A DNA stretch of 59,429 bases from a virus. The stretch covers positions 1-59,429 of the IMG/VR virus record IMGVR_UViG_3300007540_000001; one strand, 5' to 3'. Below, in pieces: positions 11,648 through 35,088 of this stretch. Every line of letters starts with the position of its first letter. Positions within the stretch are counted from its first letter, which is position 1. A model generated the notes under the pieces. The model searched no databases, was not told the origin of the DNA, and saw only the letters and a list, made by a program, of their open reading frames with translations. The translations under genes were made by a program, and so were the position numbers.

Positions 11648-12565
11648 ATGGCTGCTATTAATAGAGCTAGTATTGCGAAGCAACTTGTTCCCGGATTAAA
11701 TGCTATATTTGGCATGGAATACGGAGAAGTTGTGGATGAATTAACACCATTGTTTGAAATGGAAAACTCAGACAGAGCTTTTGAAGAAGAAGTACTCTTC
11801 ACAGGTTTTGGATCAGCTCCAGTTAAACAAGAAGGTGCTGCTGTTCAATATGATACTGCACAAGATTCATATACAGCAAGGTATACTGCAGAAACAATTG
11901 CATTAGCATTTAGTGTAACAGAAGAAGCTATGGAGGATAATCTTTATGATACATTCTCTAAACTTCGTGCACGTGGTCTTGCAAGAGCAATGGCAAATAC
12001 TAAACAAGTAAAAGGTGCTGACATCTTTAATCAAGGATTCAACGCATCATATGGTGGTGGAGATGGAGTTCCTTTATTCTCTGCTGCTCACCCAATCGTT
12101 GGTGGTGCTAATCAAAGTAATTTGATTGCTACTAACGGAACAACTGACTTATCTGAAGCTTCACTTGAGTCAGGTTTAGTATCTGTACAAACTGCTAAAG
12201 ATGACAGAAACATTCTGATTGGTACAAACGCATTGTCAATTCACATTGCACCACACAATCAGTTTGCAGCTGCTCGTCTATTAGACAGTCCTTACAGACC
12301 GGGTACTGCTGATAATGACATTAATGCAATTAACCATGGAGGTCTAGTACCTAATGGTTACTTCGTTAATAAACGATTCAGCGATGCAGATGCATGGTTC
12401 TTAAAAACAGATTGTCCTAACGGAACTAAAATGTTTAACAGAACACCATTGCAAACACAAATGTTACCTGACTTTGATACAGGCAACCTAAGATATAAGG
12501 CTAGAGAAAGATATTCTTTCGGTTGGTCTGATTGGAGAGGTTACTTTGGATCACAAGGTAGTTAA
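11648..12565 (+). CDS. Major capsid protein (HK97-like)
   Basis: This is a 305-residue protein with AAAGGGAG upstream and a strong terminator directly after. The N-terminal stretch MAAINRASIAKQLVPGLNAI, the TARYTAETIALAFSVTEEAM segment, the GVPLFSAAHPIVGG motif and the C-terminal YKARERYSFGWSDWRGYFGS are characteristic of small HK97-fold capsid proteins related to the Mu gpT type. It would form the icosahedral shell together with the scaffold, portal and candidate decoration protein encoded just upstream. Confidence 0.9.
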   Translation: MAAINRASIAKQLVPGLNAIFGMEYGEVVDELTPLFEMENSDRAFEEEVLFTGFGSAPVKQEGAAVQYDTAQDSYTARYTAETIALAFSVTEEAMEDNLYDTFSKLRARGLARAMANTKQVKGADIFNQGFNASYGGGDGVPLFSAAHPIVGGANQSNLIATNGTTDLSEASLESGLVSVQTAKDDRNILIGTNALSIHIAPHNQFAAARLLDSPYRPGTADNDINAINHGGLVPNGYFVNKRFSDADAWFLKTDCPNGTKMFNRTPLQTQMLPDFDTGNLRYKARERYSFGWSDWRGYFGSQGS

Positions 12566-13592: not shown

Positions 13593-14246
13593 ATGAATTA
13601 TACTACATTAGTAAGTTCAGTTATTGCTACCACAGAAAATGAAGCTACGGAATTTATTTCCCAACTTCCTGATATGGTAGGTAGAGCTCAAGAAAGAATA
13701 CTTGGGGATATAGATGATATTGGTTTAACCAGTTATACTAGTGTTGCTGTAAGTGCTAACAATGCTTTTATTACAGTACCAACAGGATCAGAGTTAGTTA
13801 AAGGATTAGTAGTAGACACTTCAGGTTCCAAAGGTTCTTTACTACAAAGAGAATATGATTATATAATAGACTACTGGCCCGTATCTGTTTCAACTGGTAC
13901 TCCAAGATATTATGGTTTTAAAAGTAATACACAAATTAAAATAGCTCCAACTCCATCAACAACTCTTGATGCAGAAATAGCTTATCAAACTAATCTAACT
14001 ACATTAACTTCATCAACACAATCTAATTATTTAACAGACTTCTGTCCATCATTATTGTTTGATGCTACTATGGTAGAAGCTACATACTTTATGAAAGACT
14101 ATGCAGTATTACAAGCATGGCAACAACAATATGCAACTGAAGCAGCACGTATAAGAAATAGAGCTAGACGTTCAAGAACTAATACAATGCAAGATAACTG
14201 GAGTCCAGCTGGCACTCCTGATACGATTCAAAAGGGAGGAAGCTAA
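13593..14246 (+). CDS. Head-tail connector/adaptor protein (SU10/P22 gp4-like)
   Basis: This 217-residue protein has the typical adaptor pattern: an N-terminal helix with MVGRAQERILGDIDDIG, a middle beta region with the GTPRYYGFKSNTQIKIAPTP motif (about residues 106-125), then LIYQT-like strands and a helical C-terminus with FDATMVEATYFMKDYAVLQ and many Arg. Adaptors of this type bind under the portal and begin the short tail. It starts four bases after the previous stop, and its own stop overlaps the next ATG. Confidence 0.72.
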   Translation: MNYTTLVSSVIATTENEATEFISQLPDMVGRAQERILGDIDDIGLTSYTSVAVSANNAFITVPTGSELVKGLVVDTSGSKGSLLQREYDYIIDYWPVSVSTGTPRYYGFKSNTQIKIAPTPSTTLDAEIAYQTNLTTLTSSTQSNYLTDFCPSLLFDATMVEATYFMKDYAVLQAWQQQYATEAARIRNRARRSRTNTMQDNWSPAGTPDTIQKGGS

Positions 14247-14878
14247 TGCCAATTAATAGTGCAAGTGGAAGAAATATAGGAGGAGGTAATAAAGATGTAT
14301 CTTCTCATTATAGAGGTTTTGATTCTGGTAAAGGAAATCCTTATCCAGATAAAGCACCAACTTCATTTAATAAACCACCAAAGCCACAAATGAAAAATAC
14401 TAGAACTTCTATGGATGGAGTTCAAAAAGGAAGATTAGGTGGACCAAGAAATTCTGCAAAAGATATTAGAGAAAAACCTAAAAAAAGTATTATAGATAGA
14501 TTAAAAGATTTTGCTACAAAAGGAGAGAATAAAGGAATAGGTCCTCAAGTTCCTGATCTATCTGCTGATCTAGAAAATATTTCTAATGTAGATTATTCTA
14601 AAGATAATAGAGATTCTATGTTGAAAGTAGATATACCAATTACTAAAACTGATAATATAGGTGCTCTAATGAGAAGTCCTAGAAGAAGAACACCGGGACA
14701 AGGAAGCTATCAAAGAGGTACACCAACTAAAACTAAAATGGTATTAGCTCCACATAGAAATCCAACTAATAAAAAAGTTAGAGTAGCTGATAGACCTGTT
14801 ACACGTAAGAAAAAAACAATGATTAATCCTAACAGAGGTTTTTCTGGTGGTGGATTAGTTGCATCTTTATACGATTAA
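14246..14878 (+). CDS. Basic disordered virion-region protein with C-terminal GGGLVASLYD
   Basis: This is a 210-residue, very basic protein (rich in Lys, Arg, Asn, Pro, Gly) with little predicted structure. It starts on the previous stop (TAATG). The last residues, FSGGGLVASLYD, match a motif that recurs at the ends of the next two proteins and inside an ejection protein at 33001. The context among connector genes suggests a minor virion component that may contact DNA. No known family. Confidence 0.65.
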   Translation: MPINSASGRNIGGGNKDVSSHYRGFDSGKGNPYPDKAPTSFNKPPKPQMKNTRTSMDGVQKGRLGGPRNSAKDIREKPKKSIIDRLKDFATKGENKGIGPQVPDLSADLENISNVDYSKDNRDSMLKVDIPITKTDNIGALMRSPRRRTPGQGSYQRGTPTKTKMVLAPHRNPTNKKVRVADRPVTRKKKTMINPNRGFSGGGLVASLYD

Positions 14879-14893
14879 ATTTAAGGAAAGATA

Positions 14894-15118
14894 ATGTCAC
14901 AAAAACAAAAAGGTTGGAAAGATAAAATTCTAGATAAAGCAGCTAATAAACTTAGAAAGTTAGAAAAAAAATATATAGACAAAATTCCAGAAGATGAAAA
15001 AGAATATAGTAATGATTTGTTTAAACAAAATAATAATAAAGAAGATAATAATGACTTATTTAAAAATGCAAGTGGTGGTAGAATAGTGTCATCATTTTAT
15101 AAAGGGGGAAAAATATGA
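14894..15118 (+). CDS. Small basic protein with C-terminal SSFYKGGKI
   Basis: This is a 74-residue, Lys/Asn-rich protein with AAGGAAAG upstream of the ATG. The end reads NASGGRIVSSFYKGGKI, nearly the same as the end of the next protein. The codons for KGGK also form the AAAGGGGGA ribosome binding site of the next gene, which starts ATGATG across this stop. Function unknown; probably a minor virion or DNA-binding protein. Confidence 0.65.
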   Translation: MSQKQKGWKDKILDKAANKLRKLEKKYIDKIPEDEKEYSNDLFKQNNNKEDNNDLFKNASGGRIVSSFYKGGKI

Positions 15119-15471
15119 TGGCAAATAAAATTAAAATTGAAGTTAAGAATGCAGATGGTACAGTTAATAAAAAAGAAACAGCTCGTATTAAAGAAAATAC
15201 TAGACGTATGGAAAATGAAAGAAAAACAGATATGTTTGGTAAGAGTAGAAAAAAAAGAATAACTGAAGTTCCCAGAGATGCCCTTATAAAAGGAGTAAGA
15301 AATGTAATGTCTGTAATTCCGGGACAAGTAGGTAAAAGAGGTAAAGAAGATTTAATGCTTAATCGTATGGCTAAAGAAGTAGATAAGAACTATTTAGAAG
15401 AAAAATCTAAAGGTGGTTCTTTATCAGGTTCTAAACTAGTAGCTTCATTTTATAAAGGGGGAAGAATATAA
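15115..15471 (+). CDS. Small basic protein with C-terminal ASFYKGGRI
   Basis: This 118-residue basic protein overlaps the previous stop (ATGA). The second ATG at 15118 is an equally possible start. The body is helical and Lys/Arg-rich (NADGTVNKKETARIKENTRR), and the C-terminus is SGSKLVASFYKGGRI. As in its neighbour, the final KGGR codons supply the AAAGGGGGA ribosome binding site of the following gene. No known family. Confidence 0.65.
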   Translation: MMANKIKIEVKNADGTVNKKETARIKENTRRMENERKTDMFGKSRKKRITEVPRDALIKGVRNVMSVIPGQVGKRGKEDLMLNRMAKEVDKNYLEEKSKGGSLSGSKLVASFYKGGRI

Positions 15472-15698
15472 TGTTAAAAAATAATTTTAAATCATCTAAG
15501 GAAGCAAGAACAGGTAAAGGAGAAAAACTTAAATTAGATTCTTTTACTGATTCAACAGGTAGACCAACTGGACAAGGATTTGGTGCAGCACGTAAAGGAC
15601 CTTCTGTTGTAACCTTAAACAGAGGTGGACCAGCTAAACAAAAGTATCCATTAAAGTTAAAAGGTGGTGGAATGCCAGCTCGTATGAGAAATAGATAA
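15471..15698 (+). CDS. Small basic protein, 75 residues
   Basis: This protein starts on the previous stop (TAATG) and ends in the same way with the next gene. It is rich in Lys, Gly, Arg and Pro, including RPTGQGFGAARKGPSVVTLN and a C-terminus KLKGGGMPARMRNR. It is probably disordered and nucleic-acid binding. Function unknown. Confidence 0.6.
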   Translation: MLKNNFKSSKEARTGKGEKLKLDSFTDSTGRPTGQGFGAARKGPSVVTLNRGGPAKQKYPLKLKGGGMPARMRNR

Positions 15699-15874
15699 TG
15701 GCAATTACACGAGCTAAGACGGGTAAACAAATTAAAGGTAAACTTGGATCTGGTAAAAGGTTTAAGAAGCTTGCTAAAAAAACTTCCCCTGCTTTAGCTG
15801 CTTATATAGGCAGAAAAAAGTATGGAAAGAAAAAGTTCCAACAGCTTAGTGCTAAAGGAAGAAAACGTAAATAA
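15698..15874 (+). CDS. Very basic 58-residue protein
   Basis: The frame begins on the stop of the previous gene (TAATG) and ends at 15874. The product starts MAITRAKTGKQIKGKLGSGK, contains TSPALAAYIGRKKYG and ends SAKGRKRK. Roughly a third of the residues are Lys or Arg. Small proteins of this type cluster in the structural regions of marine phages and may condense packaged DNA, but that is not shown. Confidence 0.7.
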   Translation: MAITRAKTGKQIKGKLGSGKRFKKLAKKTSPALAAYIGRKKYGKKKFQQLSAKGRKRK

Positions 15875-15901
15875 CATTAACCAATAAAAGGAGGTGGTCT
15901 G

Positions 15902-16087
15902 ATGGCTGCAGCAAAAAAAGTAGGTAAAAAGAAACAAGGTTATAAGGCTCGTAAAGATGAATCAATTGCAATGAGAGTTAAAAAGAAAAGAACTCCAAAA
16001 CAGTTAAGAGCATCTGCAAATGAATCTTATGGTAAGTTTGGTTCTAAAGCTAAGAAAAAAGGTAAAATTAATAGAAGAAAAGCTTAG
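15902..16087 (+). CDS. Very basic 61-residue protein with the strongest ribosome binding site
   Basis: AAGGAGGT at 15888-15895, six bases before the ATG, is a full-length match to the 16S anti-Shine-Dalgarno and the best in the window, which suggests high expression. The product is about 40 percent Lys and Arg (MAAAKKVGKKKQGYKARKDE, then RTPKQLRASANESYGKFG). High expression plus strong basicity suggests a DNA-packing or DNA-binding role. No family is established. Confidence 0.7.
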   Translation: MAAAKKVGKKKQGYKARKDESIAMRVKKKRTPKQLRASANESYGKFGSKAKKKGKINRRKA

Positions 16088-16096
16088 GAAAAACTA

Positions 16097-16789
16097 ATGG
16101 CTACATCTGGTACTAATGCATTTAATTTAGATTTCTATGTGGATGAAATCATTGAGGAAGCTTACGAGCTTGCTGGTGGTCAACCACAAACAGGATATGA
16201 TGGTCGTAGTGCCAGACGTAGTTTAAATCTTTTATTAACTGACTGGCAAAATCGTGGTGTTCTTTTATGGGGTACAGATTTACAAACAGTAACTCTTACT
16301 TATAATCAAGCAAAAGAAACATTGGATACATCAACAGTAGATGTACTTGATGGTTATATGCGAGCTTCTAATGAAGGTAATGATTTGCAAATGACTCGTG
16401 TATCTTATGAAGAATACGAAGGTATTGTAGATAAAACTTCAACAGGAAGACCTGTACAGTTTGCTACACTCAGAGGAGAGAATACAGTTTCAGTATACTT
16501 CTGGCCTGTGCCTGATAATACTCAGACATATACTTTTAGATATTATAGAGTAAGAAGATTATATGATATTACTAAGAGTGCTCTTCAAAATGCTGATGTA
16601 CCTTTTAGATTTTTACCTTGCCTTATTAATGGACTTGCTTATTATCTATCTATGAAAAGACCTAATACTTCAGGTGATAGAATTATGATGTTAAAAGCAA
16701 ACTATGAAGAAACATTCCAATCAGCTTTTGAAGCAGATAAACAAAGAGCAGATATGTATGTAGTTCCTAGATTAGGATATATTAATTAA
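16097..16789 (+). CDS. Tail connector/adaptor-type protein
   Basis: This 230-residue protein begins MATSGTNAFNLDFYVDEIIE, followed by the ARRSLNLLLTDWQNRGVLLW segment (about residues 39-60) and a C-terminal YYRVRRLYDI and RFLPCLINGLAYYLSMK. This pattern is familiar from a family of podoviral tail-adaptor proteins that sit between the head connector and the distal tail. The identification rests on the pattern and position. The stop overlaps the next start (TAATG). Confidence 0.65.
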   Translation: MATSGTNAFNLDFYVDEIIEEAYELAGGQPQTGYDGRSARRSLNLLLTDWQNRGVLLWGTDLQTVTLTYNQAKETLDTSTVDVLDGYMRASNEGNDLQMTRVSYEEYEGIVDKTSTGRPVQFATLRGENTVSVYFWPVPDNTQTYTFRYYRVRRLYDITKSALQNADVPFRFLPCLINGLAYYLSMKRPNTSGDRIMMLKANYEETFQSAFEADKQRADMYVVPRLGYIN

Positions 16790-20428: not shown

Positions 20429-22993
20429 ATGGGAGTGCTAGGTAACAACGCACTTGTAGGAGCATCTGCAGCTGGTGCAGCAGGTGGTGGTAATTTCTAT
20501 ACGCATCAAATTCCAAACTCAGTCAGAATGGTTGCTCCTAGTAGCACATCATCAAACAATTCTAGATTAACAAAAACATTTAGTACTGTTGATTCTAATG
20601 TACATTTTACTTTAAACTTTTGGATTAAAAGATCAGCAATAGAAGGAAAAAATCCAGTTTCAAGTGCAAGACCATTAACACTATTTACTCCTAGAAGTGG
20701 TACAAGTGGTTCTGTTTTACAAGAATTTCAATTTGGTGCTACTGGTTCTTATGGAGCAGGAGATGCTTTTGTAATTACTAATACAAATAGTGGTACATAT
20801 ATTTTATCTACTAATAATTTATTTCGTGATACTTCGGCATGGTATAATATTCATATACAAGCAGATCTTGATAATGCTTCAGCAAGTGAAAAATTAAAAA
20901 TATTTGTTAATGGAACAGAAGCTTCTTATAATGTAGATAATAGAAGTTCATATACTTCTTTAGCAGGAGTAGTAGCTGGTGCTTGGACAATAGGAGATTA
21001 TTATAATTATGGTTATCCTATTCAAAGTTACCTAGCACAATGGTGTTATATTGATGGAACTACATATGCACCTACAGATTTTGCAGAAATGTCTAATGGA
21101 GTATGGATACCTAAAGATGTTACTGGATTAACATTTGGAAGTGCAGGACATTTATTAATGTTTCAAGATAGTAGTGCTTTAGGAGATGATACAAGTGGTA
21201 ATACTAATGATTGGACTTCCTCTAATCTTGACACACACGACCAAATGTTAGATACTCCCACCTTCAACTCTAGTTCTAATGGTGGTAATTATCCTACATA
21301 CAATCCTTTATTAAAACCACCTAGTAATTTAACTCTTGCAGAAGGTAATTTAAAAGCTACATTAACTTCAAATAATACTGGAATTATGACTAATTGGCAA
21401 GTTCCTTTAACTGGTAAATGGTATTGGGAAGTTGATATGGATAATATACCTTCAGGTCAAGGAATATATATAGGAGTTATGCCAGCAAATACTGACCTTA
21501 CTATTAATCAAGAATCAAATAATTTAGGACTTGTTTATTATTCTATTAATGGAAATAGTATATTAAAAGGTACTAGGTCGTCTTATGGTGCAACTTTTAC
21601 TACAGGTGATATTATAAGTATAGCTGTTGATAGAGATGCTGATACTATACAGTTTTATAAAAATGGTTCTGCACAGGGATCAGCAATAGATGTATCTAGT
21701 CTTGATGCAGAGTTCTTTTGTTATATGGGTTGTACAGGAGGAAGTGGGCCATTTAGTGCAATTCTTAATTTTGGACAAGATGGAACTTTTGCTGGAAATG
21801 TTACAGCACAAGGTAATAGTGATGACACAGGCTATGGTAACTTTTATTATGCTCCACCTACAGGATTCTTAGCTATGTGTTCTGGTAATCAGCCACTATC
21901 TGCACAAATAGATCCAGCACAAAATTCAGATGATTATCCACAAAAATTATTTGGTGCTTATACTTATGTAGGAAATAATGATGGTGATAGAACTGTATCA
22001 ACAGATTTTCAAACAGATATGGCATGGATAAAAGTTAGAAGTATTGTAGATAATAATTATATTCAAGATTCTACCAGAGGATTTGGGTTTAGTAAATCTA
22101 TTAGTACTAACTCAACAGGACTAGAAGGAGCTAATGGTGGAGCTCCAACCACTACTAAAGTAGATTCTGTATCTTCCTCTAATATGGTAGTTACTGGAGC
22201 AGATTTTACTTATTCAAGTGCAACTTATGTTGCGTGGCTTTGGAGAGCAAATGGTGGAACAACAGTAACAAATACACAAGGTTCAGAAGACTCTACAGTA
22301 CAAACAGATCCTTCAGGACATTTTAGTATTGTAAAATGGACAGGTACAAGTGATTCATGGGGTAATGCTATTACAGTTGGGCATGGATTAAATGCTGCTC
22401 CTGATCTTATAATTGGAAAAAAGTATTTAGGAAATGCAGATGAATGGCAAATATTCTTTAGTGATTATGGAGATTATTCTATAGGTGGTTCTAATGCTGC
22501 TTCTAATTCTTTAGTTTTAAATAATGATTCTGCTCTTTATACAAATCAATCATATAAAGGTTATGGTGGTGTTATGCCTACTTCAACAGTATTTACAGTA
22601 GATGGTAATAATCTTAATGGTTCTGGTGATACAGTTTTAGCTTATTGTTTTGCAAATTGTGAAGGATATATTAAAGTAGGAACATACGAAGGAAATGCAA
22701 ATGCAGATGGTGTATTTGTTTATACTGGATTTGAACCAGCATTTTTTATGTGCAAACCTTTACCAGCAGGAAATTGGAGAATACAAGATACTAAAAGGTC
22801 TCCTTATAATGTAGCTAATAAAACTTTATTTCCTAATCATACGAATGCAGAACAAAGTTACAGTTCAGATCGTATAGATATATTATCAAATGGAGTAAAA
22901 ATGAGAGCATCAGATTCAAATTATAACCAAGCAACAACATTTGTATACTTAGCTATGGCACATAATCCTTTTAAGTACTCATTGGCTAGGTAG
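20429..22993 (+). CDS. Large receptor-binding fibre with LamG-like and SPRY-like domains (first copy)
   Basis: This is an 854-residue protein. Residues about 25-190 resemble a concanavalin/LamG jelly roll (FTLNFWIKRSA, then DTSAWYNIHIQADL, and YLAQWCYIDGTTYAPTDFAE). GVWIPKDVTGLTFG and SGNTNDWTSSNL follow. About 305-470 look like a SPRY-type sandwich (GKWYWEVDM, IYIGVMPAN, DRDADTIQFYKNG). The C-terminal half repeats the FAQCEGYIKVGTYEGN-like pattern seen in its paralogue (here CFANCEGYIKVGTYEGNANA). LamG-like domains bind glycans, so this is a likely host-recognition protein. The ATG at 20429 has little ribosome-binding signal (four bases after the previous stop), suggesting translational coupling. 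Confidence 0.72.
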   Translation: MGVLGNNALVGASAAGAAGGGNFYTHQIPNSVRMVAPSSTSSNNSRLTKTFSTVDSNVHFTLNFWIKRSAIEGKNPVSSARPLTLFTPRSGTSGSVLQEFQFGATGSYGAGDAFVITNTNSGTYILSTNNLFRDTSAWYNIHIQADLDNASASEKLKIFVNGTEASYNVDNRSSYTSLAGVVAGAWTIGDYYNYGYPIQSYLAQWCYIDGTTYAPTDFAEMSNGVWIPKDVTGLTFGSAGHLLMFQDSSALGDDTSGNTNDWTSSNLDTHDQMLDTPTFNSSSNGGNYPTYNPLLKPPSNLTLAEGNLKATLTSNNTGIMTNWQVPLTGKWYWEVDMDNIPSGQGIYIGVMPANTDLTINQESNNLGLVYYSINGNSILKGTRSSYGATFTTGDIISIAVDRDADTIQFYKNGSAQGSAIDVSSLDAEFFCYMGCTGGSGPFSAILNFGQDGTFAGNVTAQGNSDDTGYGNFYYAPPTGFLAMCSGNQPLSAQIDPAQNSDDYPQKLFGAYTYVGNNDGDRTVSTDFQTDMAWIKVRSIVDNNYIQDSTRGFGFSKSISTNSTGLEGANGGAPTTTKVDSVSSSNMVVTGADFTYSSATYVAWLWRANGGTTVTNTQGSEDSTVQTDPSGHFSIVKWTGTSDSWGNAITVGHGLNAAPDLIIGKKYLGNADEWQIFFSDYGDYSIGGSNAASNSLVLNNDSALYTNQSYKGYGGVMPTSTVFTVDGNNLNGSGDTVLAYCFANCEGYIKVGTYEGNANADGVFVYTGFEPAFFMCKPLPAGNWRIQDTKRSPYNVANKTLFPNHTNAEQSYSSDRIDILSNGVKMRASDSNYNQATTFVYLAMAHNPFKYSLAR

Positions 22994-30974: not shown

Positions 30975-32585
30975 GTGGCACAAAGACCTATGGTAAATCC
31001 AACAACAGCAATGCCTGATGCACCTATGTCAGGACTAGCTAACCTTATGGCAATGAAGGGCAGAGAAAATGATAGTATGCTTGTTCATCTTAGTCCTAAT
31101 GAAGTAAACAATCTTAATAAATTATCTGGTAATACCATGACTATTAATCCAGACACAGGATTACCTGAAGGAAAGTCACGTTTTCTTGAAGCAGCTTTAC
31201 CAGCTATTCTCAGTATAGGAACAGCTATTGCTACAGGTGGTTCAAGTATTCCAGTTCAAATGGCAGCAGCAGCTGCAGCAGGTTATGGTGGACAAAGATT
31301 AGTAGGTAAAGATCATGATGAAGCTTTAACAAGTGGTTTAATTAGTGGAGCTACTGCAGGATTATTAGGTGGTACAGGTTCAAAAGCTTTAGAAGGAGTA
31401 ACAAGATCAGGTATTGCTAAAGAAGCTATTCCTGCAGCATTACCAAGTAATCTTGCTACAAATGAAGGCATGAAAGCATTTATGAACAAAGGTATAAATG
31501 AAGCAGTCTTACAAACAGCTAATCAAAAAATAATAGATGAAGGAATACAAGGAAGTATTAAAGATATTGGAAAGGCTGCTTTTGCAAAACCTACCGATTT
31601 ATTTAGAACTGTAAATGAAATAGGTATATCTGAAGCATTAAAAAATCCAGCTACAGCTGTACCATTAGCAACACAATTTGCAGGACGTACAGGAATGAAT
31701 GCATTAGTAGATCAGATGAGAGCTGATGCTAATAAACCATTAGGAAATTTAAATGCACCTGTTACAGAAGCAGGAGAGTTATTCTCTACACCATTTACAC
31801 AAACTGCTCTTGGTCCATTTACTCAAGATCAAATAACTAGTAACTTTATAGGTGGTGGTACTGGTCCTTATGGTATAAATTATTTTAATCAAGGATTTGC
31901 ACAAGATGGTGGACCTGTTAGTAAAATGAATCAAGGTGGTCTTACACAGTTTCAAAGTATAATGGGTAATCCTGCTTTACAAATACAAAATCCTAATCCA
32001 CCATTAAGTATGGCAGTTGGTGGGTTATTAAGTATAGCAAATAAGCAACCAAAAAAAATGTTTATGGGTGGTCCAACTAAAGTTTTTGATCAAATGTTAA
32101 ATGATCCTAAAGTATTAGAACTTTTACAACAATCACAAACACAAGCTCCAAAACAATCATATGATGTGTTAGCTTCTCTTGGTGCTAATCCTCCACAACA
32201 AATGAATCATGGTGGTATGGCAGGAGCAGGTATGGCACAAGATTCAATCATGCCAGCCATTGCTCCGTTAATTCAAGTAGCTAATCAAGAAGCACAACAA
32301 ATGAGAACAGGTGGTATGCCACAACAAGCTTTTGAAGGAAGAGTAAAAGGACAAGGAGATGGTATGTCTGATGAAGTTCCTTTTATGATTGAAGGAGAAC
32401 AACCAGCTTTATTATCTGTAGATGAATATGTATTACCTGCTGATGTTGTAGCAATGATTGGTAATGGTTCAAGTGATGCAGGATCAGATAAGATAGACGG
32501 AGCAATAGCAAATATAAGACAAGATAAGTATGGTAGACCAGAACAACCTAGGGAGACAGAAGGGCTAGGAGGTCTCCTAGGATAA
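30975..32585 (+). CDS. Internal virion/ejection protein with GG motifs
   Basis: This 536-residue protein uses a GTG start at 30975, with GGAG seven bases upstream. Residues about 68-130 are hydrophobic Ala/Gly-rich helices (LPAILSIGTAIATGG, AAAAAAGYGGQRLVG), fit for membrane insertion. The C-terminal half has repeated Gly-pair motifs (DGGPVSKMNQGGLTQ, FMGGPTKVFDQ, MNHGGMAGAG, MRTGGMPQQAF) and ends with EGEQPALLSVDEYVLPADVV, AMIGNGSSDAGSDKIDGAI. That ending is a pattern I associate with phage internal virion proteins. It probably leaves the head with the DNA and helps form a trans-envelope channel. Confidence 0.68.
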   Translation: MAQRPMVNPTTAMPDAPMSGLANLMAMKGRENDSMLVHLSPNEVNNLNKLSGNTMTINPDTGLPEGKSRFLEAALPAILSIGTAIATGGSSIPVQMAAAAAAGYGGQRLVGKDHDEALTSGLISGATAGLLGGTGSKALEGVTRSGIAKEAIPAALPSNLATNEGMKAFMNKGINEAVLQTANQKIIDEGIQGSIKDIGKAAFAKPTDLFRTVNEIGISEALKNPATAVPLATQFAGRTGMNALVDQMRADANKPLGNLNAPVTEAGELFSTPFTQTALGPFTQDQITSNFIGGGTGPYGINYFNQGFAQDGGPVSKMNQGGLTQFQSIMGNPALQIQNPNPPLSMAVGGLLSIANKQPKKMFMGGPTKVFDQMLNDPKVLELLQQSQTQAPKQSYDVLASLGANPPQQMNHGGMAGAGMAQDSIMPAIAPLIQVANQEAQQMRTGGMPQQAFEGRVKGQGDGMSDEVPFMIEGEQPALLSVDEYVLPADVVAMIGNGSSDAGSDKIDGAIANIRQDKYGRPEQPRETEGLGGLLG

Positions 32586-32588
32586 TAA

Positions 32589-33008
32589 ATGTATGAAGTA
32601 AGTTTAGTTCCTACTAATGAGATAACAAAAGTATGGGATAGAATAGAACCATTAGTTGATAAAGTAATACCTTACACCTACGGAAGAATGTTAACTGTAG
32701 ATGTATTACATAGTTTAATTACTAATCAATATCATCTTTGGATTATATATAAAGATGATGAAGAAATAGAAGCAATAGCTATAACAGAGTTTATGAAATA
32801 TCCTAGAAAAACTGTGTTATTAATTAATTTTATTTCAGGTGATAACTTAGATAAGTGGATAAAAGAATTGGATAAGACATTAGTTAAATTTAGTAAAGAA
32901 TCTGGATGTGATTTTCTTGAAGCTTGTGGAAGAGCAGGTTGGGAAAGAAAAGTTACAAAACTAGGATGGATAAAAAAGTTTACAATAGTGGAGAAAAAAC
33001 ATGGGTAA
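32589..33008 (+). CDS. GNAT-like phage protein
   Basis: This is a 139-residue protein. The middle (LWIIYKDDEEIEAIAITEFM, about residues 45-65) and the end (KESGCDFLEACGRAGWERKV) match a protein commonly placed between ejection-protein genes in podophages. It has the length and strand order of a small acetyltransferase fold, although the acetyl-CoA loop is not obvious. It may modify virion or host proteins or be a structural relic. The end overlaps the next gene by eight bases. Confidence 0.6.
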   Translation: MYEVSLVPTNEITKVWDRIEPLVDKVIPYTYGRMLTVDVLHSLITNQYHLWIIYKDDEEIEAIAITEFMKYPRKTVLLINFISGDNLDKWIKELDKTLVKFSKESGCDFLEACGRAGWERKVTKLGWIKKFTIVEKKHG

Positions 33009-35088
33009 GGGTAGTCCACAGGGCCAACCGGCACACACAACACAACAAACAACATCAGAATATCCTACAGAGTTAAAACCATTTATCAAGGATATATTTG
33101 GTAAAGCTAAAGGTATTGAAGAACAAAGAACTTCACAAGGTTATCAACCTTATACGGCTCCACGTATTGCAGAATTTACTGAAGATCAAGTAGATGCTTT
33201 TGAAGGTATTCGTGGTGCTCAAGGTGCAAGTACTCCATACTTTAATCGACAAGAAACTTTAATTGATAGAGCTACTAGAGAAACTACTCCTGAACTTACA
33301 CAACAGTATATGAATCCATATACACAGACTGTTATTAATCAACAACTACGTGAGCTTGGTAGACAAGGTGAACAACAACGTCAAAAAATAGGTGCTGGTG
33401 CTGTAGGTGCTGGTGGTTATGGTGGTTCCAGACAAGCTATACTTGAAGCAGAACAAATGCGTAATGAAGGAATGCGTGGAGATGATATACAAGCACGAGG
33501 ATTAAATCAAGCTTTTGCTTTAGCTCAACAAGGTATACAACAGCAACGTGCTGCTGATGCTGCAGGTGCTAATATGTTTGGTCAAATGGCACAACAAGTG
33601 CCGGGACAAAGATTTAAAGAACTTGGAGCTCTGGCTGGTATTGGTGCTGCTGATCAAACACAACAACAACGTGCTCTTGATTTAGGATATGAACAATTTA
33701 CAGATGAATATAATTTTCCAATGAAAAATTTAAATGAATACTCTGCTATTCTTAGAGGATTTCCTTTGTCTCCTACTCAAAATATAAGTCGTGCTGTCTA
33801 TAGTCCTGTTGCTCCATTGTCTAGTCAGTTATTAGGTGCAGGAGTAGGTTTAGGTTCTGCTGCTATGATGGGTGGTATGTTTGGTGCAAGTGGTGGACAA
33901 GTAAAAAAATTACAACAAGGAGGGCTTGCTAGTCTTTATAATAAACCTACTAATAGAGTTCAAAGGGGTAAGACTAATTATCAAAATTTAACTAATATGG
34001 GTTTACCTTCTCCTCAATATAAAGATGAGGATGTTTTAAATATATTAAAAGAAATAATGCCTAAAGGAAGAACAGGTACATTAACTCCTGAAGAGGTAAC
34101 ACAACAACAAGAGATTATAAATGTTCATCCTGATTTTGGTTATGTCCCCGGACTTATGAGTTCAGGTTTAAGTTCTCGTAGTGCTTCTGGTAATCCTATA
34201 ATAAATAAAACTGAAGTAGAAAAGTTAATTAAAAGTAATATTAATAAAGTAGATAATCCTCCTCCACCACCTCCGATGGTTACTCCTCCTGAAGTATTAG
34301 AAAACTTTGAAGAAATAAAAAGAATAGCTGCTGGTGTTGAAGAGGATGGACAACAAGTAAATGAAGAAGAAGTTGTTGACATAAATACAACAACTACATT
34401 TGAAGTTCCTCAAGATGATCAACAAGGATTTACTTCATGGTTATCATCTTTAAAAAATCCTAATTCAGAAGCATCCGAAAAAAGAATGAGATTTGCTACA
34501 TGGGCACCTGTATTAGCAAGTGTTGAATCAATAATGGGTGCACCTTCTATTGGAGCTGCAGTAGGAAAATTATTTACTGCTTCTGCTAGAGCTGCACAAG
34601 GATATGCAAATCAATCTGGTAAAGAAATATCTATGGCAACTGCTAAACGTAAAGCAGCTTTAGAGGGTTCTAAAGTTATGTCAGAAGTATATAAAAATTT
34701 AAGTAGTCCAGCTGCATACGTAGCTAATGTAGCACATGTTAAAAGTATAATAGATGGTAATAATGGAGAGGTTCCAAGAGAATCAGATGGAGAAATTTAT
34801 AATGAATATCAAGAAGCTTTAAAACTACAAAAATTATTAGGTGATAGATTGAGTACTCCTCAACTAGAACAAGCTAAAGAGGATGCTCTAGTAGGAATGA
34901 AAGGATTACCCGGTATAGTGTTACCAAAAGATATATTTGACGATAATATACAAGCTAAAGAAATATATAATTATTGGAAAAATAATATAGCTAAGGCACC
35001 TGTTTCAAAAAACAAAGGTGGTAAAATAAGAAGCTTTGATTTTGTAGAAGAAGGTGATAAACTTATAGCAGTACCTAAAGTAACTTAG
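33001..35088 (+). CDS. Internal virion/ejection protein with YMNPYTQ motif
   Basis: This is a 695-residue protein. Residues about 95-165 contain LTQQYMNPYTQTVINQQLRE and GAGGYGGSRQAILEAEQMRN, a well-repeated pattern in podoviral internal proteins. A Gln/Ala-rich helical zone follows, then a Gly/Ala hydrophobic patch (LLGAGVGLGSAAMMGGMFGA). Directly after it is GGQVKKLQQGGLASLYNKPT, an internal copy of the GG-L-A-S-L-Y motif found at the ends of small proteins near 14878-15471. The C-terminus has NKGGKIRSFDF. It is likely injected with DNA. Confidence 0.7.
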   Translation: MGKGSPQGQPAHTTQQTTSEYPTELKPFIKDIFGKAKGIEEQRTSQGYQPYTAPRIAEFTEDQVDAFEGIRGAQGASTPYFNRQETLIDRATRETTPELTQQYMNPYTQTVINQQLRELGRQGEQQRQKIGAGAVGAGGYGGSRQAILEAEQMRNEGMRGDDIQARGLNQAFALAQQGIQQQRAADAAGANMFGQMAQQVPGQRFKELGALAGIGAADQTQQQRALDLGYEQFTDEYNFPMKNLNEYSAILRGFPLSPTQNISRAVYSPVAPLSSQLLGAGVGLGSAAMMGGMFGASGGQVKKLQQGGLASLYNKPTNRVQRGKTNYQNLTNMGLPSPQYKDEDVLNILKEIMPKGRTGTLTPEEVTQQQEIINVHPDFGYVPGLMSSGLSSRSASGNPIINKTEVEKLIKSNINKVDNPPPPPPMVTPPEVLENFEEIKRIAAGVEEDGQQVNEEEVVDINTTTTFEVPQDDQQGFTSWLSSLKNPNSEASEKRMRFATWAPVLASVESIMGAPSIGAAVGKLFTASARAAQGYANQSGKEISMATAKRKAALEGSKVMSEVYKNLSSPAAYVANVAHVKSIIDGNNGEVPRESDGEIYNEYQEALKLQKLLGDRLSTPQLEQAKEDALVGMKGLPGIVLPKDIFDDNIQAKEIYNYWKNNIAKAPVSKNKGGKIRSFDFVEEGDKLIAVPKVT

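Follow-up and report, generated by a model that had tools for sequence, protein, structure and literature searches.

In phage T4, a capsid-targeting sequence (CTS) of about 10 residues forms one end of the internal proteins IPI-IPIII and Alt, which are small, basic, and variable; the targeting end is kept and the remainder diverges, and T4 relatives encode other basic proteins with CTS-like ends (PMC9026906). The cargo-loading peptide of Family 1 encapsulins is short, C-terminal, and Gly/Ser-containing, and brings different cargos to an HK97-fold shell (PMC8346489). The peptide we describe here (the tag) is similar to both: like the T4 CTS it is a short conserved end on variable basic proteins (18-22 clusters, with about 25% Lys+Arg), and like the encapsulin peptide it is a short conserved C-terminal peptide on otherwise different proteins. 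However, the T4 CTS is N-terminal and cut by the protease gp21, whereas the tag is C-terminal and of another sequence, with no recognised processing site; and packaging is proven for the T4 proteins, whereas we infer it for the tagged proteins. The Family 1 consensus, given as SDGSLGIGSLKRS (PMC8346489), does not match the tag consensus GGx[VLI]V[DAS][SA]xY[DK] by inspection; encapsulin cargos are enzymes, whereas the tagged proteins are basic and predicted to be disordered; and no encapsulin shell is present as a partner, the shell gene here (11648) being, by its match to PHROG 371, that of an ordinary phage major head protein. Differing in the end used, in sequence, or in partner, the tag belongs to neither class, and the best explanation would make it an analogue of both that is new in sequence and position.

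Two groups of phages provide the closest genomic comparison. SU10 (Kuravirus) shares its adaptor family with both borders of the gene island discussed below; the part of its description consulted covers portal, adaptor, nozzle, needle, fibres, and ejection proteins, and tagged basic proteins are not mentioned in that part. HTVC023P-type pelagiphages have a similar portal (40-44% identity) and small basic proteins near adaptor-like genes; the tag of the window was not seen in the portions of HTVC023P examined, which has another recurrent end (RGxGxAxRG) instead, and no terminal copy was found in the portions examined of the isolates HTVC027P, 023Pt_psg01, and CRP-901.

Gene order and the tagged genes of the window

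The window (the whole 59,429-bp stretch of DNA that was analysed, an IMG/VR virus record) belongs to a marine podophage related to the pelagiphages: its portal is 40-44% identical to those of HTVC023P, HTVC027P, 023Pt_psg01, and Roseobacter phages. The genes are arranged as terminase, transglycosylase, portal (5630), scaffold-like and major head protein (11648), and SU10-type adaptor (13593), followed by an island of small basic genes (14246-16087) and then by a second SU10_adaptor-family gene (16097). Both island borders are assigned to Pfam PF24175 (SU10_adaptor; 62.7 and 39.7 bits, above the curated cut-off of 27 bits); a search by sequence for solved relatives of the adaptors and of the major head protein returned none at E 0.01. 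A position next to a connector gene is not in itself enough to make the products of the island virion proteins. The features of the island are as follows:

13593..14246, + strand: SU10-type adaptor (head-tail connector) gene 1, directly preceding the tagged genes (Pfam PF24175, E 8e-17; PHROG 2941, virion structural protein; AAAAGGGAGGAAGCTAATG)
14246..14878, + strand: tagged protein 1 (210 aa, basic, predicted disordered; AlphaFold mean pLDDT 52)
14846..14875, + strand: C-terminal tag 1, GGGLVASLYD (rank 1 of 28,586 peptides with the distant-clade profile)
14894..15118, + strand: tagged protein 2 (74 aa)
15074..15100, + strand: C-terminal tag 2, GGRIVSSFY
15101..15109, + strand: AAAGGGGGA, read both as K-G-G in the KGGKI end and as Shine-Dalgarno for the gene that starts at 15115
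15115..15471, + strand: tagged protein 3 (118 aa)
15427..15453, + strand: C-terminal tag 3, GSKLVASFY
15454..15462, + strand: AAAGGGGGA, read both as K-G-G in the KGGRI end and as Shine-Dalgarno for the gene that starts at 15471
15471..15698, + strand: untagged protein of the island; its tail, MPARMRNR, is another recurrent one, and a segment (PTGQGFGAARKGPSVV) is common to other small island proteins
16097..16789, + strand: SU10-type adaptor-family gene 2, bordering the island on its downstream side in the window phage (Pfam PF24175, E 1e-9)

The three adjacent genes at 14246, 14894, and 15115 (spanning 14246-15471) have the C-termini GGGLVASLYD, GGRIVSSFYKGGKI, and GSKLVASFYKGGRI, present where the earlier note had placed them and reading as it had reported; read to the stop codon, the ends are SGGGLVASLYD, SGGRIVSSFYKGGKI, and GSKLVASFYKGGRI. 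No PHROG match was found for tagged proteins of the window or its relatives, and no Pfam match at E 0.01 or better for the three in the window. AlphaFold models of two tagged proteins are of low confidence and have unstructured tails; since only 8-15 sequences went into them, their low pLDDT is weak evidence of disorder, and the modelled tails fit, without proving, a peptide that folds on binding.

A similar motif occurs inside the DNA-ejection protein encoded at 33001, and the earlier note had counted it, together with looser GG motifs in the protein at 30975 and in the transglycosylase, as further copies of the element:

33919..33942, + strand: internal GGLASLYN of the DNA-ejection protein (PHROG 4287, DNA ejection protein; homolog alignment)

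The motif is indeed present close to the residue named there (QQGGLASLYNKP, residues ~305-316), but we judge it to be the family's own GGL[ASV]SL and not the tag: homologs from seven contigs have GGLASL, GGLSSL, GGLVSL, GGLSDL, or GGLGEM, without the Tyr, and we therefore rejected QQGGLASLY as a copy. The homologs share a Gly-rich hydrophobic segment (33870-33945 in the window) followed by GGL[ASV]SL, and a partner common to this motif and the tag is possible. The looser motifs were also rejected, since counts of GG followed by a hydrophobic residue in the 30975 protein, the 33001 protein, and the transglycosylase were not above those in shuffled sequences (P 0.12, 0.23, and 0.39, respectively).

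A conserved C-terminal peptide on exchanged bodies

The shared element is a C-terminal peptide with the consensus GG-x-[VLI]-V-[DAS]-[SA]-x-Y-[DK], the core of which is extended upstream in a distant clade to KKYGGKI-x-Y-[RK]-M. It is conserved in its amino acids, joined to bodies that are exchanged, and restricted to the island that follows the adaptor gene. We scored the core, as the regular expression G.{1,2}[LIVMF][VIA][ANDSGT][SAT].Y[DEKQN], on all 2205 predicted genes of the gathered loci. It matched within the final 24 residues in 30 genes, where shuffled tails would give 0.2 (maximum 2 in 200); this count is partly selected, since several of the 30 matches (in loci L087-L098) came from the same motif searches. 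Internal matches in 370,261 residues were restricted to two near-identical proteins, both fetched by the motif search itself. An unselected scan of 12 long contigs and the window found matches at or next to a C-terminus in the adaptor-following island only; on these 13 contigs the motif was not equally frequent in non-structural proteins, one of the two outcomes that the earlier note had named as refuting its proposal. A profile built from the distant clade only ranked the first tag of the window 1st of 28,586 window peptides, exactly C-terminal; its score by itself is not extraordinary (exceeded in 1 of 20 shuffled windows), and it is the exact position that counts. When 63 tagged proteins were aligned by their ends, V(-4) was found in 61 and the second Gly in 55, the invariance of the first Gly and the Tyr being imposed by the regular expression used.

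In close relatives the ends are kept and the remainder of the proteins has changed. For example, loci L005 and L006 have the ends GGGLVASLYESF, GSKLVASYYKGGKI, and KGGKIVSSFYKGGKI, but their genes are ordered differently and one body is unrelated (in L005, that of the gene whose tag matches the tag of tagged protein 3), L088 has EGGMIVASQYKGCS and EGGKLVASFYKGGKI, and the distant clade, about 50% identical in gene 16097, has TGGQVVDSSYD, SGQDLVNACYD, and TGGQIIAAIYD. The GG, V, S, and Y of tag 1 are invariant across 8 relatives. The body of tagged protein 1 varies in relatives from 116 to 293 aa. The window and L005 each encode three tagged proteins; L088 and L288 encode two.

We also scanned IMG/VR with a back-translated DNA pattern of the distant clade's end, the sole positional requirement of which was a stop codon, and recovered 62 tagged ORFs in 62 stretches (near-copies among them leave 35 with distinct tag DNA). 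An adaptor-family gene lies 0-757 nt upstream in all 57 tagged ORFs with upstream sequence (the other five are at a locus edge), and at a distance of 14 nt or less in 53. A permuted-codon control pattern had no match in IMG/VR, against 62 for the true pattern, which rejects chance or codon composition as the origin of the tag; and bacterial and archaeal genomes (257 Gb) contained no match to the true DNA pattern. In the distant clade, conservation extends further upstream than the pattern used for the scan: at positions -19, -18, -16, -14, and -12 the residue is the same in 34-35 of 35 cases while the codons vary. The three tag copies in the window use three different Val codons. In the tags, pS is about 0.5-0.6 and pN/pS is 0.2-0.4 (the distant-clade ratio is lowered by the search pattern, and the window-clade figure comes from 7 codons only). 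DNA-level homology was rejected as the cause of the shared tag, since synonymous sites vary; these codon comparisons show that the tag is conserved and selected at the amino-acid level.

Clustering of 69 distinct tagged proteins (BLASTP, with the last 28 residues removed) gave 18-22 body clusters, depending on the cut-off, the largest with 27 members, and the bodies range from 21 to 474 aa, including open-ended pieces. Pfam searches of 63 tagged proteins matched LysM in three (E 1.8e-14) and segments similar to dockerin/EF-hand in up to 15; in the alignment of the 63, the loop D-[AV]-N-[KNR]-D-G can be seen directly. LysM, a peptidoglycan-binding domain, is joined to the tag in L288 (3303-4786, two in tandem) and L293 (2329-3069); EF-hand/dockerin-like calcium loops (DxNxDGxIxxxDF) directly precede the tag in L144, L286, L298, L301, and others.

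Double use of the last bases and other recurrent ends

The KGGKI and KGGRI ends in the window are spelled AAAGGGGGAARAATAT, 5-10 nt ahead of the next ATG, as a Shine-Dalgarno. The bases for the adaptor end QKGGS (14226-14246) likewise double as the Shine-Dalgarno of the gene that follows. In 33 of 62 distant-clade cases, the ATG within TATGAY is the start of an ORF at least 30 aa long. Because of this double use, the last residues cannot be ascribed solely to the peptide; the KGG(K/R)I ends, taken as part of it in the earlier note, are at least partly the ribosome-binding site of the next gene.

Other ends recur in these islands. In sister lineages the same island has a second C-terminal end, GxGxAxRG[FY/G] (L135, L246, L218, and L247), sometimes on two consecutive genes; for example, SGKGAGAALRGF ends two tandem proteins on one contig. 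In HTVC023P (L083) a GxGxAxRG end lies near the C-terminus of two proteins (11656-12393 and 22481-22864). Matches to this type of end number 25, some of them non-terminal, against 6.9 expected. A third recurrent tail, MPARMRNR, KPAWMRNR, or NPSRMRNR, is found on small proteins just upstream of the second adaptor-family gene, in the window (15471-15698) and at many other loci, sometimes on two proteins per genome. The second end suggests that these operons make wider use of shared ends.

Possible roles of the tag

The tag resembles an address label that sends different proteins to one place, with the virus particle probably as the destination. Of the readings that we considered, the docking or sorting peptide proposed in the earlier note is the best supported, the element being short, C-terminal, conserved in its residues, attached to many unrelated bodies, and located beside a virion connector gene; the proposal was not borne out for the proteins at 33001 and 30975 or for the transglycosylase as carriers. 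We give about an even chance to a docking or targeting peptide with incorporation into the virion. The tag would then be a short linear peptide at the free C-terminal end of small basic proteins, largely disordered, that are products of the head-tail connector operon, and one assembly partner within the virion would bind it (our guess is the connector/portal vertex or some other component inside the prohead). Since a single partner would bind the tag, phages could swap bodies with the delivery site unchanged, and unstructured tails would be expected because the peptide would become ordered on binding; the cargo would be packaged, and perhaps ejected together with the DNA. A literature search for virion proteomics of the phage group of the window found none. 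More tentatively, and with the odds against it, the island may be a general loading system that brings the product of any post-adaptor gene with a tag into the virion, from where it would be ejected into the host. The island would then be an exchangeable cassette of injected proteins with peptidoglycan-binding, calcium-binding, DNA-binding, or anti-defence roles, and RGxGxAxRG would be a second class of address in sister lineages.

The tagged proteins could instead be one fast-evolving disordered family with the C-terminus as its slowest part and a single function (e.g., DNA condensation or adaptor completion). The 27-member cluster, the similarly basic bodies, and the fact that most occupy the same gene slot agree with this, but tagged genes occur in tandem within one genome, only some have LysM or EF-hand-like segments, and the bodies differ greatly in length, which makes a single family rather unlikely. 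Bodies are swapped between two conserved elements, the adaptor gene and the 3′ end, and some proteins have segments besides the tag in common, as would be found if the adaptor gene and the tag DNA were homology arms for body swaps and the tag a conserved recombination joint with no binding role. Permuted or synonymous DNA would serve such a joint equally well, yet the residues are kept while the tag DNA, as the pS values and the differing codons for the same residues within one genome indicate, is not conserved; we consider the joint improbable.

Still less probable is that the C-terminal residues only mirror the translation signals (Shine-Dalgarno and start) of the overlapping gene that follows. 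The KGGKI/KGGRI ends and the adaptor KGGS do have such spelling (AAAGGGGGA/AAGGGAGGA, 5-10 nt before the next ATG), and Y-D overlaps an ATG in many distant-clade genes, but the core GGxxVxSxY lies upstream of these signals. In addition, the first tagged gene of the window has no overlapping start (it ends 15 nt before the next gene), and other relatives have YESF or YKGCS after the same core. Translational coupling is thus ruled out for the core, and it holds for the last 1-5 residues.

Should the docking peptide be a loading signal, sequence alone would tell which of these abundant marine phages' many unnamed small proteins travel with the particle, and what pelagiphage-like virions inject would become directly testable. 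It would then be a C-terminal counterpart, in short-tailed phages, of the T4 capsid-targeting sequence; and even a tag that does no more than dock on the connector would represent a new conserved interaction at the portal vertex.
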